From NCBI RefSeq assembly GCF_003010935.1, contig NZ_PGGN01000002.1, positions 1,116,001 through 1,180,000 on the forward strand: a stretch of 64,000 nt of DNA, read 5' to 3'. This DNA comes from Phyllobacterium endophyticum (GTDB lineage Bacteria > Pseudomonadota > Alphaproteobacteria > Rhizobiales > Rhizobiaceae). Below the pieces are notes generated by a model, which worked only from the letters and a program-made list of their open reading frames with translations, did no database searches and was not told where the DNA came from. Each line of letters begins with the position of its first letter. The first letter of the stretch is position 1. A program made the translations under genes and the position numbers. This document shows positions 7,677 through 42,817 of the stretch, one piece after another.

Positions 7677-8414
7677 TTAGATCATTGCCATGCCGCCGTT
7701 GACGTGAATGGTCTGGCCGGTGACATAGGAGGCTTCACTGCTGGCAAGATAGACAACCGACGAAGCAACCTCGGCGCCGGTGCCCATGCGGCGCATGGGG
7801 ATGGCAGACATGATACCTTCCTTCTGCTTGTCGTTGAGCTTGTCTGTCATTGCCGATTCGATGAAACCCGGCGCAACGCAATTGACTGTGACATTGCGGC
7901 TGGCGATTTCCTGCGCGAGTGATTTGGAGAAGCCGATCAGTCCGGCCTTGGACGCTACATAATTAGTCTGTCCTGGATTGCCGGTCACGCCGACTACCGA
8001 GGTAATGTTGATGATCCGGCCATAGCGGCGGCGCATCATGGGATGGGTAAGCTCGCGCGTCAGCCTGAATACGGCGGTCAGATTGACCTCAAGAACATTG
8101 TCCCAATCGCCATCGCTCATGCGTACGAACAGGCCGTCCTTGGTGATGCCTGCATTATTGACAAGAATCTCCACGCCTTCGAGATCAGCTTCCGCCTTTT
8201 CACCAAGCGCCTTCACCTCATCGCGATTGGAGAGGTTCGCCGGAAAAATCTTCACGCGATCGCCAAGATCAGCCGCCAAAGCTTCGAGTTTTTCAACACG
8301 CGTACCATGCAGGCCGACGATTGCTCCCTGGGCATGCAACGAGCGGGCAATAGCCTCGCCTATACCACCCGTCGCACCTGTGATGAGTGCCTTGCGGCCT
8401 GAAAGGTCAAACAT
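7677..8414 (-). CDS. fabG: 3-oxoacyl-ACP reductase
   Basis: NADPH-dependent reduction of beta-ketoacyl-ACP in fatty-acid elongation. The SDR features are TGATGGIGEAIA near residues 12-23, the NNAG segment and YVASKAG near residue 151. The start is ATG 8414 (MFDLSGRK), giving 245 residues; upstream in-frame codons precede a GAGGAACGC ribosome binding site and are not part of the fold. It follows fabD by 17 bases. Confidence 0.96.
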   Translation of the reverse strand: MFDLSGRKALITGATGGIGEAIARSLHAQGAIVGLHGTRVEKLEALAADLGDRVKIFPANLSNRDEVKALGEKAEADLEGVEILVNNAGITKDGLFVRMSDGDWDNVLEVNLTAVFRLTRELTHPMMRRRYGRIINITSVVGVTGNPGQTNYVASKAGLIGFSKSLAQEIASRNVTVNCVAPGFIESAMTDKLNDKQKEGIMSAIPMRRMGTGAEVASSVVYLASSEASYVTGQTIHVNGGMAMI

Positions 8415-38431: not shown

Positions 38432-39241
38432 ATGCCTGAAAAGCACTTTTCCGCCTCTGCGGTCGCAAGAGCCTGTCTGCTAGCGGTCGCCGGGTGTATT
38501 TTCAGCCTTCCGGCCTTGTCCGCAAGCATCGAGGGGTCGGTTCAACTCGCATTGAGCGAGATCAAGAAAGAAGAACTTCCCAAAACTGCCGAACCTGCAA
38601 AACCCGACGCTGAAACCAAGCCGGCCGACGAGACCCAGAACGGCCCCTCCTCTCCTGACAAGCCCGATGCCGCGCCGGAGCAGCCTGTACAGGCGCCGGC
38701 AGCGACGGAGGACAGCAGCGCGGGTGAGCAGAGCAGCAATCCTGCCATGCCCAATGCTAAGGAAGGCTCACCAGCGCCTCAGGTCGAATACGACGTCACC
38801 AAACTGCCCTTCCCCGTGCAGAAGATGCGCGAACTTATCCTGACGGCTGCAAAATCCGGTTCGATCGAGGCCCTTCGTCCGCTGATCGGATCTGGCGATG
38901 ACATAACGATGCTGTCGCTCACCGATATCGAAGGCGATCCGCTGGCTTATCTAAAAAGCCTCGCTGGCGATCCGGATGGTCAGGAGATTCTGGCTATATT
39001 GGTCGACGTGCTTGAGTCGGGTTACGTGCATATCGATGCGGGTACGGCCGACGAGCTTTACGTGTGGCCTTATTTCTTCGCTTATCCGCTCGACAAGCTG
39101 GATGCGAAACAAAAGGTCGAGCTCTTCCAAATCGTCACGGCCGGCGATTACGACGAGATGAAGCAATTTGGCACTTACGTGTTTTACCGCTTGGGTATCA
39201 CACCCAAAGGCCGCTGGCGTTTCTTCGTCACGGGCGACTGA
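38432..39241 (+). CDS. exported protein with Pro/Ala/Glu-rich linker
   Basis: 269 residues: N-terminal signal peptide (residues 1-31, ending PALSA), a low-complexity Pro/Ala/Glu/Ser linker at about 45-125, then a folded C-terminal region of about 140 residues with aromatic YVWPYFFAY and GRWRFFVTGD ends. Probably periplasmic. It starts 22 bases after the 85-residue gene. Similar proteins appear in rhizobia without known function. Confidence 0.75.
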   Translation: MPEKHFSASAVARACLLAVAGCIFSLPALSASIEGSVQLALSEIKKEELPKTAEPAKPDAETKPADETQNGPSSPDKPDAAPEQPVQAPAATEDSSAGEQSSNPAMPNAKEGSPAPQVEYDVTKLPFPVQKMRELILTAAKSGSIEALRPLIGSGDDITMLSLTDIEGDPLAYLKSLAGDPDGQEILAILVDVLESGYVHIDAGTADELYVWPYFFAYPLDKLDAKQKVELFQIVTAGDYDEMKQFGTYVFYRLGITPKGRWRFFVTGD

Positions 39242-39275
39242 AAAAACCTCAGAGGCAAAACTTTCTTACCCGCGA

Positions 39276-39302
39276 TGTCACGTTTGGCAGTGCTGTCTCG
39301 TC
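39276..39302 (+). promoter_or_regulatory. predicted ECF41-type sigma promoter
   Basis: TGTCACG (39276-39282), exactly 16 bases, then CGTC (39299-39302). This matches the signature described for ECF41 sigma factors (TGTCACA, 16 bases, CGTC) with one change. It lies 40 bases upstream of the carboxymuconolactone-decarboxylase gene, which is followed by an ECF41-type sigma gene, as expected for self-regulation. Confidence 0.75.
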
Positions 39303-39341
39303 TTGTGTTCAGGCAACTGAATGCCGGATAAGGAGATAGAC

Positions 39342-39797
39342 ATGAAAGCGAGATTGAACCTGTTCAATCATGGCGGTATCGAGCCAATGATAAAAATGAG
39401 CGAAAGCGTCGAGAAATCCGGCCTTGAACATAGTCTCAAGGAGCTGATCAAGATGAGAGCTTCGCAGATCAATGGATGTGCGTTTTGCCTCGACATGCAT
39501 TCAAAGGATGCGCGCGCAAACGGCGAGACCGAGCAGCGGCTCTACCTGCTTAACGCCTGGAGGGAATCACCGCTTTATAGCGACCGCGAGCGCGCGGCAT
39601 TGGCTTGGACGGAGGCGCTGACGCTGGTGTCCGAAACGCATGCGCCTGATGCCGACTATGAAGCCCTGAAGCCGCATTTTACGGATGATGAAATCGTACA
39701 ACTGACCATGATGATTGTTACAATCAATTCCTGGAACAGAATCTCCATAGGCTTCCGCACCGTACACCCCGTGGCAAAAGACCGTGCCGCAGCCTGA
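39342..39797 (+). CDS. carboxymuconolactone decarboxylase / AhpD-like protein
   Basis: AhpD-like all-helical fold of 151 residues. The redox motif is CAFCLDMH with Cys46, Cys49 and His53, typical of alkylhydroperoxidase-type members that reduce peroxides or act in thiol relay. ATG 39342 follows an AAGGAGAT site. This family is the most common partner of ECF41 sigma factors. Its stop lies inside the sigma gene start, overlapping by 14 bases. Confidence 0.92.
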   Translation: MKARLNLFNHGGIEPMIKMSESVEKSGLEHSLKELIKMRASQINGCAFCLDMHSKDARANGETEQRLYLLNAWRESPLYSDRERAALAWTEALTLVSETHAPDADYEALKPHFTDDEIVQLTMMIVTINSWNRISIGFRTVHPVAKDRAAA

Positions 39798-40653
39798 CAA
39801 CATAACTGAGGCATTCAACCGCCTCAGGCCGCGACTGATCCGCATCGCCTATCGGATGCTCGGCTCGGTCGCGGAGGCGGAGGATATCGTTCAGGAGGGG
39901 TTTATCCGCTGGCATCAGGCCGACCGGTCTGATGTCCACAGCGAAGAAGCATTTCTTGTGCGCACCATTACACGCCTTTGCCTCGACCATTTGAAATCGG
40001 CGCGCGTGCGGAGGGAAACCTACGTGGGAGAATGGCTTCCAGAACCCATCTTCGACCCAAGCCACGAGGAGACGGATACTGATATCACCCTCACGCTGAT
40101 GATGGCTCTGGAGCGTCTTTCGCCGCTCGAACGTGCCGCATTTCTGCTGCACGACGTGTTCGGACAGGATTTCGCTCATGTTTCGGAAGCAATCGGCCGC
40201 GATCCGGCCACGTGCCGGCAATTGGCGAGTCGAGCCCGTAGCCATATCCAGAAGGCCAAGCCCCGTTTTCCGGTCTCCAACGAACAAGGGCAGAACATCG
40301 CCAAGGCCTTTTTCGCCGCTTCACGCACCGGCGACATGCAGACACTGCAAGCTCTTTTGGCACAGGACGTTGTTCTCCATGCCGATGGCGGAGGCCAGCG
40401 GATCTCGGTCGTCAATCCGATCTATTCAGCTGCAAATGTGTGCCGGTTTCTTGAAGGGGTCTCAAGACGGGCAGAGTATCAGCTACCACCGCTTCTACAT
40501 CAAGGCTTTATCGATGGGTTGCCGGGCTTTGTCACGAGGGAGAGTGACGGCCTGCCACAGACGACCGCTCTTGAAATCGAGGATGGCAAGATCAAGGCGA
40601 TCTATGTGATGCGCAATCCCGAGAAACTCCGGCATCTGAATTTTCCGCATTGA
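39784..40653 (+). CDS. ECF41-type sigma factor with SnoaL-like C-terminal domain
   Basis: Sigma-70 region 2 (about residues 10-75) and region 4 (about 105-160) are joined by a linker with WLPEP at residues 84-88. A SnoaL-like extension follows, with DGGGQ at 201-205 and NPEKL at 278-282. These three motifs define the ECF41 group, where the extension controls sigma activity without a separate anti-sigma factor. The GTG start overlaps the upstream gene. It probably transcribes its own operon from 39276-39302. The inducing signal is unknown. Confidence 0.93.
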   Translation: MPQPDNITEAFNRLRPRLIRIAYRMLGSVAEAEDIVQEGFIRWHQADRSDVHSEEAFLVRTITRLCLDHLKSARVRRETYVGEWLPEPIFDPSHEETDTDITLTLMMALERLSPLERAAFLLHDVFGQDFAHVSEAIGRDPATCRQLASRARSHIQKAKPRFPVSNEQGQNIAKAFFAASRTGDMQTLQALLAQDVVLHADGGGQRISVVNPIYSAANVCRFLEGVSRRAEYQLPPLLHQGFIDGLPGFVTRESDGLPQTTALEIEDGKIKAIYVMRNPEKLRHLNFPH

Positions 40654-40706
40654 CCCCGGTGGGGCTTGGTCTAGCTTTGGCGGCCGTTGCCTCAAAGGAA
40701 ATCGTA

Positions 40707-41495
40707 ATGCAGCAGTTGACGATGTATCAGGTAGACGCGTTTACCACCGAACTCTTTAGCGGTAATCCGGCAGCGGTCCTTGTACTCGATCAATGGCTTC
40801 CCGTAGAAACGATGCAAGCTATCGCGAGTGAAAACAATCTAGCCGAGACCGCCTTCGTCAAACGGCAACCCAACGGCTGGGACCTACGCTGGTTTACCCC
40901 GGTGCACGAGGTGGACTTTTGTGGCCACGCAACGCTTGCCACAGCCCATGTGCTTGCCAATGAGCTAGGCGTCGAGGGTGAGTTGGTTTTTACAACCAAG
41001 GTCGGCGCTTTGAGGGTCAACAGGAAGAACTCAGCATACCAGCTTGATTTTCCAAGTTTCCCACCGCAACCGATTGGCGCAATGCCTCCGATGCTCAGCG
41101 AGATCGCTGGAGGTCTGCACGTCTCGGTATTTCGAAACTTCGAAAACATATTCGTTGTGTTGCGGGACGAGCAGGCAGTCCTCGAGTTCATACCGGACTT
41201 GCCGAATATCGAGAAGCTCGATCCATTCGGGCTCGTGATAACGGCCAAAGGCGGCGAACACGACTTTGTGTCGCGCTATTTCGTTCCTCATGCCGGCATT
41301 CCGGAAGACCCGGTGACAGGCTCCATCCACTCGACGCTGGTGCCCTATTGGGCAGCACAGTTGGGCAAGACCAAATTGTCGGCCTTCCAGCGTTCGAAGC
41401 GTGGCGGGCAACTTGTCTGTGAGCTTTCCGGTGATCGTGTGCTGATCACGGGATCGGCCGTTACCTTCATGAAGGCCAAAATCTACCTGCCCTGA
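40707..41495 (+). CDS. PhzF-family isomerase/epimerase-like protein
   Basis: Diaminopimelate-epimerase fold protein of 262 residues. Visible motifs: DAFTTELFSGNPAAV at the N terminus, the catalytic Glu in NNLAETAF, GHATLA and EDPVTGSIHS. The reaction is unknown outside phenazine producers. ATG 40707 follows AAAGGA. It starts 53 bases after the sigma gene and could belong to the same ECF41-controlled transcript, but this is uncertain. Convergent with the dihydroorotase gene, overlapping by 13 bases. Confidence 0.88.
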   Translation: MQQLTMYQVDAFTTELFSGNPAAVLVLDQWLPVETMQAIASENNLAETAFVKRQPNGWDLRWFTPVHEVDFCGHATLATAHVLANELGVEGELVFTTKVGALRVNRKNSAYQLDFPSFPPQPIGAMPPMLSEIAGGLHVSVFRNFENIFVVLRDEQAVLEFIPDLPNIEKLDPFGLVITAKGGEHDFVSRYFVPHAGIPEDPVTGSIHSTLVPYWAAQLGKTKLSAFQRSKRGGQLVCELSGDRVLITGSAVTFMKAKIYLP

Positions 41496-42817
41496 AGCGC
41501 CTCACCGAACAGGACCGGCTCACCTTGGCCCGGTGTGACTATTTCTCCCTCCCACATGACCTTGTGGCCGCGAACGATCGTGCCGACCGGCCAGCCTGTA
41601 ACAGTCTTGCCATCATAGGGTGTCCAACCAGCTTTTGAGCCGACCTGGGCGTTTGTGATGGTTACGCGCCTCTTCATGTCGACTATGGTTAAATCAGCAT
41701 CGTACCCGACAGCAATTCGGCCCTTGCGAGCCATGCCAAACAGACGATTGGGGCCATGCGAGCTCAAGTCAACGAAACGCTCGATCGACATGCGGCCAGC
41801 GTTTACGTGGTCAAGCATGATCGGCACCAGGGTCTGGACGCCGGTCATGCCCGATGGTGAGGCTGGATACGGCTTTGATTTCTCTTCGAGCGTATGCGGC
41901 GCATGGTCAGAGCCGAGAACATCGACGATCCCTTGCCCGATCCCCTTCCAGATGCCGTCGCGATGGCGCGCCTCCCGAACGGGCGGGTTCATTTGCAACA
42001 ATGTGCCAAGCGTCCCGTACAGGCCTGCATCGAGCGTCAGGTGATGTGGCGTCGCCTCGCAACTCGCCACATCCTTGTGGTCCGCCAGAAAATCGATCTC
42101 TTCTGCTGTGGAGATATGCAAGACATGGATGCGCGCGCCGGTTTCCCGAGCGATCCGGACCAAGCGCTGCGTGCACTGCAGCGCTGCGATCTCGTCCCGC
42201 CAGACTGGATGGGACGAGGGATCTCCCGGAACGCGAAAGCCTTCTCGCTCGCGCAGACGGAATTCGTCCTCTGAGTGGAATGCTGCGCGGCGGCGGGTAT
42301 TCTTCAGGATCGAACGCACACCATCATCGTCCTCCACGAGCAGATCGCCGGTAGAAGAACCCATGAAAACCTTTATGCCGGCGGCGCCCGGCAATCGCTC
42401 AAGCTCTGCTACATCACCGGCATTGTCGCGCGTGCCGCCAACCCAGAAGGCAAAGTCGCAATGCATCCGGTGGTGACCGCGACGAACCTTGTCCTCCAGC
42501 TTTTCTGCGGAAGTCGTGAGCGGCTTCGTGTTCGGCATTTCAAACACTGCCGTCACTCCGCCAAGCACTGCGGAGCGCGAGCCGCTCTCCAGATCCTCCT
42601 TGTGTTCAAGGCCGGGTTCGCGGAAATGCACCTGACTATCGACGACCCCCGGGAGGATGTGCAATCCGGTGGCATCGATAGTCTCACCGGCCGAAGCACT
42701 GCCAAGGTTGCCGATCGCCGCAATGCGGCCACCGCTGACGCCAATGTCTCGCAAGGCGACGCCATCTTGATTGACGACAATCCCGCTTCTGAAAATCGTA
42801 TCGAATACCTGAGCCAT
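41483..42817 (-). CDS. pyrC: dihydroorotase (class I)
   Basis: Zinc amidohydrolase that closes carbamoyl-aspartate to dihydroorotate in pyrimidine synthesis. Metal ligands are in VHFREPG (HxR), the carbamylated-lysine region in GIKVFMGSS, and the catalytic Asp in GSDHAPHT. ATG 42817 (MAQVFDTIF) gives 444 residues, normal for class I; the longer upstream frame reads into the divergent ygfZ gene. Hydantoinase-like activity cannot be excluded from sequence. Confidence 0.9.
   Translation of the reverse strand: MAQVFDTIFRSGIVVNQDGVALRDIGVSGGRIAAIGNLGSASAGETIDATGLHILPGVVDSQVHFREPGLEHKEDLESGSRSAVLGGVTAVFEMPNTKPLTTSAEKLEDKVRRGHHRMHCDFAFWVGGTRDNAGDVAELERLPGAAGIKVFMGSSTGDLLVEDDDGVRSILKNTRRRAAFHSEDEFRLREREGFRVPGDPSSHPVWRDEIAALQCTQRLVRIARETGARIHVLHISTAEEIDFLADHKDVASCEATPHHLTLDAGLYGTLGTLLQMNPPVREARHRDGIWKGIGQGIVDVLGSDHAPHTLEEKSKPYPASPSGMTGVQTLVPIMLDHVNAGRMSIERFVDLSSHGPNRLFGMARKGRIAVGYDADLTIVDMKRRVTITNAQVGSKAGWTPYDGKTVTGWPVGTIVRGHKVMWEGEIVTPGQGEPVLFGEALQGR

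Follow-up and report, generated by a model that had tools for sequence, protein, structure and literature searches.

The locus described here lies in a 64,000-nucleotide stretch of the Phyllobacterium endophyticum genome (the window), and it is very probably (roughly 0.92) a Phyllobacterium ECF41 operon, in which a sigma factor with a fused C-terminal domain activates a CMD/AhpD-like gene and its own gene from a promoter of the form A-TGTCACRT-N-YCTCGTC. The sequence-only reading had joined promoter, partner enzyme and regulator into a single autoregulatory ECF41 unit. Homology, gene order and conservation in 20 of 20 Phyllobacterium genomes bear the unit out, with autoregulation itself presumed. 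The parts, their order, the promoter and the mechanism have already been published for other species, and the Phyllobacterium operon is a further example of this known switch, since it agrees with the systems of PMC3426412 and PMC6180224 in promoter, gene order, fused domain and single target. A literature search for Phyllobacterium ECF sigma factors found no paper that treats the operon, judging by titles and the opening of abstracts.

The ECF41-type promoter TGTCACGTTTGGCAGTGCTGTCTCGTC (TGTCACG-N16-CGTC) was read from the sequence at 39276-39302 on the forward strand. Its predicted -35 element, TGTCACG (39276..39282, with A-TGTCACRT as the genus form), is present as a looser pattern in all 22 relatives, and its predicted extended -10 element TCTCGTCTT (39296..39304), which includes CGTC at 39299-39302, was recognised by the recurrence of YCTCGTC in relatives. 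The promoter ends 39 bases before the ATG of the CMD/AhpD-like gene at 39342, one fewer than the 40 first reported for this same motif, and an AAGGAG ribosome site precedes the ATG.

The short motif alone is weak evidence. In the window, TGTCAC-N15..18-CGTC occurs twice against 0.62 expected, and two or more matches were obtained in 11 of 100 shuffles. The second match is located at 7701-7725 on the minus strand, in DNA that we take to resemble the 3' part of a FabG-like gene. A search of the 5.5-Mb own genome (5,508,378 bases on 12 contigs) revealed 53 copies of TGTCAC-N15..17-CGTC, versus 17 of the reversed pattern. Altogether 64 distinct short-motif sites were listed, and context was examined for the 47 with a fetched locus, leaving out 17; 39 of the 47 are located inside an ORF of at least 150 aa on either strand. 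Besides the operon promoter, seven examined sites lie outside such ORFs, and the ORFs downstream of these were translated. The one closest to a gene start, TGTCACATTTCTGTAACATGCTACGTC (C8:164216-164242, minus strand), is found 33 nt before an ORF that, from its translation, we presume to be ArsC-like; the site is without an extended -10 and is probably a chance match.

The extended promoter behaves differently from the short motif in the same genome. With up to two mismatches allowed, 39 sites were found versus 24 for the reversed control, and the single perfect one is the operon promoter. The genome-wide search suggested by the sequence-only reading thus singled out the operon in the extended form, while the short motif turned out to be common. 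A wider regulon in the own genome was considered and rejected: the upstream A/T tract described below and the preceding A do not occur together at any of the 46 other sites examined, and no further target is claimed. The own genome probably holds one target operon.

Conservation among relatives was assessed in 22 loci gathered by sigma protein homology and scanned for TGTCA-N17..19-CGTY. The pattern was found upstream of the sigma gene in 22 of 22, and directly before the CMD gene in 19 of the 20 relatives with a CMD match. In Bosea caraganae, tandem CMD copies precede the sigma gene (L030:1896-2980); the promoter is located before the first copy, and none was found within 130 bases before the other. 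In a Caulobacter locus and a Paenibacillus MAG locus, no CMD match lies between the promoter-like site (L028:2537 and L029:1729, respectively) and the sigma gene, the sites being 464 and 1,272 bases, respectively, before the matched sigma segment.

Within the genus, TGTCACRT-N12..14-YCTCGTC is found 501-520 bases upstream of the sigma gene in all 20 Phyllobacterium genomes. The extended pattern has 21 sites in total across these genomes, the only extra copy being in P. calauticae, and the reversed control has four. The 20 promoter 27-mers represent 18 distinct sequences, with a mean identity of 0.65 at spacer positions 8-18, 0.93 in the -35 and 1.0 in the -10; the latter two values are partly a product of the collecting pattern, which fixes bases there, and the loose-pattern scan of relatives serves as the independent check. 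In that scan YCTCGTC recurred, although the loose pattern did not require it. Furthermore, the columns CTCGTCT are invariant in a genus alignment (A2; 20 rows, 19 distinct).

The frequency of the short motif, with its 53 genomic copies, would fit the view that the promoter match arose by chance and that a different sigma factor drives the operon. Against this, 22 of 22 relatives share the site and its spacing, and 20 of 20 genus genomes keep the extended form around a variable spacer. The one extra copy, moreover, precedes an epimerase gene, and epimerases belong to the published ECF41 targets. A simple scan of 39200-41560 also revealed no sigma-70-type promoter. We regard a chance match as highly improbable, slightly more so than at first because an apparent exception in Bosea vanished when the whole locus was scanned. 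Position and conservation together make the operon promoter more than a chance occurrence of its motif.

The ECF41 promoter appears to have two further features. An A/T-rich tract, AAAACTTTCTTA, is located upstream of the -35 at 39257..39268 on the forward strand and may have an UP-element-like role. At positions -15 to -11 from the -35, the 20 genus promoters have an A+T fraction of 0.93 and eight others one of 0.88, compared with 0.47 at the 46 other own-genome sites; the eight are L117, L025, L026 and the five of 15 out-of-genus matches that precede COE-type or ECF41 genes, with the remaining ten left out. At least four of the five bases in this block are A or T in 19 of 20 genus promoters, seven of the eight others and five of the 46 other sites. 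The sole genus exception is the window's own block, CTTTC (3/5 A/T), which interrupts the tract. In 26 of 28 promoters the base directly before TGTCAC is an A.

The terms UP element, A-tract and AT-rich do not occur in the portion of PMC3426412 available to us, and the accessible part of PMC10880074 mentions UP elements in general terms only. A literature search combining ECF sigma factors, UP elements and A-tracts found no paper. The upstream A/T tract and the extended -10 (YCTCGTC, in most cases with TT after it) appear to be new details of this promoter type, as does the conserved stretch at the predicted transcript start described below. The tract and the extended -10 could refine the ECF41 promoter model, which now stands at TGTCACA-N16-CGTC, with fewer false positives in regulon searches.

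The predicted regulator is a sigma factor of 289 aa with a GTG start (39784..40653, forward strand), comprising sigma2, a WLPEP linker, sigma4 and a SnoaL-like C-terminus. It matches the SigJ subfamily model NF007214 with E=5.3e-116 and 386.9 bits (cut-off 271), and scores 312.1 bits against SigX4 (TIGR02957), below the cut-off of 323.25. Two Pfam domains are above cut-off, PF04542 at residues 11-74 and PF08281 at 105-155, followed by a C-terminal extension to residue 289, for which the SnoaL_2 score of 21.6 is under the gathering cut-off of 27. This layout agrees with that of the ECF41 group, whose members have no sigma domains besides sigma2 and sigma4 and end in an extension of about 100 aa. 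Mycobacterium tuberculosis SigJ (5xe7) aligned with E=4.3e-45 over residues 10-282, so that sigma2, sigma4 and the SnoaL-like C-terminus are all covered. An AlphaFold model of moderate quality (mean pLDDT 76.5, pTM 0.59; linker residues 79-83 and 92-101 below pLDDT 50, too low to judge the linker contact) gave as fold matches, in order, 5xe7, SigG1 (7qh5), and then sigma-only chains (SigW and others) and ketosteroid-isomerase/NTF2-like structures. The model thus predicts a SnoaL-like fold for the extension, in agreement with the domain first proposed from the sequence and with the 5xe7 alignment of the C-terminus.

The assignment to the ECF41 group had been made on the motifs WLPEP, DGGGQ and NPEKL. 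All are present, as EWLPEPI at residues 83-89 and as ADGGGQ and RNPEKL in the C-terminal extension, and the SigJ homology over nearly the whole chain agrees with it. DGGG and NPxKL are, as we take it, the names of conserved C-terminal motifs of the group. The part of PMC3426412 that we had names WLPEP for the ECF41 sigma2-sigma4 linker and states that there are three motifs; the strings DGGG and NPxKL did not turn up in that part. In a 21-row alignment WLPEP, DGGG and NPxKL are nearly invariant except in two divergent paralogues. The sigma gene is present in all 20 Phyllobacterium genomes searched; its product shares 84% identity with the P. trifolii protein and 72-84% with those of 16 further Phyllobacterium-type loci. 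It is the only ECF41-type gene in its own genome, being the sole match at E<=1e-5. Seven sigma factors from other genus genomes (L078-L084), at 39-40% identity, were not considered further; of these, L078 and L084 were aligned, and both lack WLPEP and DGGG. The absence of a separate anti-sigma factor, also claimed at the outset, agrees with the scan of neighbouring ORFs (37639, 38149, 38432 and 40707), none of which matches an anti-sigma family and two of which match no Pfam family at all.

The predicted target gene, at 39342..39797 on the forward strand, encodes a CMD/AhpD-like protein of 151 aa. It matches PF02627 (E=2.6e-22), the ahpD_dom model TIGR00778 (E=1.7e-18) and PDB 2gmy (E=3.5e-46). 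It carries a CxxC motif (CAFC, in the context NGCAFCLDMH), and a redox function is presumed. The overlap with the sigma gene noticed in the sequence-only reading was confirmed, ORFs 39342-39797 and 39784-40653 sharing 14 nt (39784-39797). The two genes overlap in every one of the 17 Phyllobacterium-type loci. Eleven of these have the 14-nt overlap, and in the remaining six it measures 11-17 nt on the assumption that translation begins at the closest in-frame GTG ahead of the match. Upstream, at 38432-39241, a 269-aa protein is encoded in all 17 of these loci at a varying distance from the operon. It has no Pfam or NCBIfam match, and by reading of its sequence we presume that it is secreted.

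By analogy with characterised ECF41 factors, the SnoaL-like C-terminal domain of the sigma factor would act on the sigma2-sigma4 linker and so keep the protein poorly active. An inducing signal, probably a small molecule or a redox change, would shift this domain. The sigma factor and RNA polymerase would then recognise A-TGTCACRT-N-YCTCGTC at 39275-39302, aided by the upstream A/T tract, and would transcribe the CMD/AhpD-like gene as one unit with the sigma gene that overlaps it, giving positive autoregulation. Transcription, activation and autoregulation in P. endophyticum are all predictions.

Comparison with the ECF41 families revealed agreement in sigma domains, linker motif, CMD linkage and promoter. 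According to the sections of the source papers at hand, the group is characterised by the promoter TGTCACA-n16-CGTC, COE targets and a fused C-terminal domain (Wecke et al. 2012, PMC3426412) that contacts the linker and hinders RNA polymerase binding (PMC3426412; reviewed in PMC8999054), and tests of related operons exist for Bacillus licheniformis and Rhodobacter sphaeroides (PMC3426412) and for Sinorhizobium meliloti (PMC6180224). In S. meliloti, overexpression of RpoE9 is reported to give a single target, the CMD gene SMb20029, with a start site that fits the promoter. The available text of PMC6180224 describes a CxxC CMD gene upstream of the sigma gene, an N16 promoter and the same CTGTCTCGTC -10 side as here. 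The S. meliloti operon differs in being located on pSymB, in having A as the seventh base of the -35 (TGTCACA) where the window has G, and in that no PhzF gene is described with it in that text, whereas one adjoins the operon here. Ecf41Rsp/RSP_0606 of R. sphaeroides and Ecf41Bli/ydfG of B. licheniformis likewise have a CMD partner, a TGTCACA-n16-CGTC-type promoter, a C-terminal extension and one target; promoter activity and start site were measured in those systems, as given in the part of PMC3426412 available, whereas the present operon is known from its sequence.

Of solved structures, M. tuberculosis SigJ (5xe7) is the best relative by both sequence and fold. It has the same sigma2-linker-sigma4-SnoaL layout but only 31-34% identity in structural alignments. 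Streptomyces tsukubaensis SigG1 (7qh5), the second-best fold match, has the C-terminal SnoaL_2 domain in common (PMC7730460, as far as its accessible text goes) but belongs to the ECF56 group and is 20% identical in the structural alignment.

The extra perfect extended promoter in P. calauticae (genome G003, to which the sigma locus L022 belongs) is located in G003 C41, on the minus strand of L117:718-1455. The gene that follows it encodes an NAD-dependent epimerase (PF01370, E=1.6e-17), and the 3-kb locus L117 has no WLPEP or DGGG motif. Epimerases are one of three ECF41 target classes in the part of PMC3426412 we had, and ECF41 control of this gene in trans is possible. The unlinked site offers a test of whether ECF41 factors ever control genes beyond their own operon.

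Outside the genus, a sample of 297 family genomes gave 15 extended-pattern matches. Three of these precede a CMD and an ECF41 gene (L120, L130 and L131), one precedes an ECF41-like gene whose partner is of a different kind (L125), and one an NmrA/NAD-binding gene (L129). The extended pattern alone is therefore not specific, since ten of the 15 matches are without an evident COE gene as first downstream ORF. At L125:1085-1483 (minus strand), where the promoter matches, the ECF41-like gene (with WLPEP) comes after a 133-aa protein, with no CMD, oxidoreductase or epimerase; the 133-aa protein has no Pfam match and is presumably a membrane protein, by reading of its sequence.

A genus-conserved stretch, GTGTTCAGGCAACTGAATGCC, is found at the predicted transcription start (39305..39325, forward strand). 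Mean column identity over 39303-39325 is 0.887 in the genus versus 0.655 for spacer positions 8-18. Three readings of this conservation remain: a constraint on the initial transcript, an operator, or slow divergence. The stretch could be a second control element, an operator for a repressor or a leader RNA element, that gates the ECF41 promoter. Consistent with this, its conservation comes close to that of the promoter; it also contains GGCA-N6-TGCC, lies at the predicted transcript start, and has the short piece TGCAGGCAA in common with the non-orthologous epimerase promoter of L117.

Three leader RNA hairpins were tested on alignment A2 and rejected, as none gained covariation support. For the inner GGCA/TGCC hairpin 93.3% of cells are paired, a value reached by 54 of 500 shuffles, and for a TTCAG/CTGAA hairpin 77.2%; no pair is changed on both sides in either. 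A hairpin between CTTGTGT and the ribosome-site side is paired in 86.9% (460 of 500 shuffles as high), with one pair changed on both sides, in two cells, and 166 of 500 shuffles gave a covariation score at least as high. When six sequences were folded singly, the z-scores ranged from -1.99 to +0.07, and an Rfam search of 39200-41560 returned one sub-threshold match (E=0.81). The stretch has no other perfect copy in the genome, is strongly altered in L111, the deepest genus member, and was not seen in the out-of-genus leaders inspected. We hold a second control element of this kind to be unlikely. The wider proposal, that a genus-specific second element TGTNCAGGCAACTGAATGCC gates the ECF41 promoter through a regulator or leader RNA and that the P. 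calauticae sigma factor reaches the unlinked epimerase in trans, seems less likely still. If the trans control in P. calauticae were true, an ECF41 regulon would not always be a single operon.

Downstream of the sigma gene, 40707..41495 on the forward strand encodes a PhzF-like isomerase of 262 aa (PF02567, E=2e-57), an uncertain member of the unit. Its ATG at 40707 is located 53 bases past the sigma stop on the same strand, and on this spacing the sequence-only reading had suggested that it may belong. The spacing stands, but the linkage is unstable. A PhzF match (E<=1e-20) was found in 16 of the 20 genus genomes: in 12 the gene starts 51-60 nt (stop codon included) after the sigma gene, and in four it is 875, 882, 3,084 and 4,432 bases from it. 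No match was found in the other four, one of which is 88% complete. ORFs on the opposite strand follow the sigma gene in L018, L019, L020 and L022, and L018, L020 and L022 (G015, G008 and G003) represent three of the four genomes with a distant PhzF. In L012, L013 and L021 a convergent ORF, which we take to be of the dihydroorotase type, follows the sigma gene.

One may read these genes as a three-gene operon, CMD-sigma-PhzF, in which the ECF41 switch has PhzF as its second functional output. The short same-strand gap here, the adjacency in 12 genomes, the lack of a sigma-70-type promoter noted above and the finding by simple scan of no terminator-like site between sigma and PhzF are consistent with such an operon. 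A terminator-like site does occur within the sigma gene (40337-40349, forward strand), but shuffled sequences yield such sites at least as often. Against the three-gene operon stand the displaced or missing PhzF genes, the opposite-strand ORFs and the poor conservation of the sigma-PhzF gap. The gene also showed no ECF41 promoter of its own, as none of the 21 extended-promoter sites in the 20 genomes lies before PhzF. Furthermore, PhzF is absent from the main text of PMC3426412 in the portion available, and a literature search combining ECF sigma factor, carboxymuconolactone decarboxylase and PhzF found no paper. The three-gene operon is doubtful, though somewhat less so than a second control element. 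Given that PhzF adjoins the sigma gene in 12 of 20 genomes, lies 0.9-4.4 kb off in four and was not found in four, we see it as at most a loose passenger of the two-gene ECF41 operon, a frequent neighbour that is possibly read through here and has no defining role.

The operon thus offers a genus-wide ECF41 example in which promoter, target and sigma factor are all conserved. This conservation makes Phyllobacterium a reasonable place to seek the ECF41 signal.
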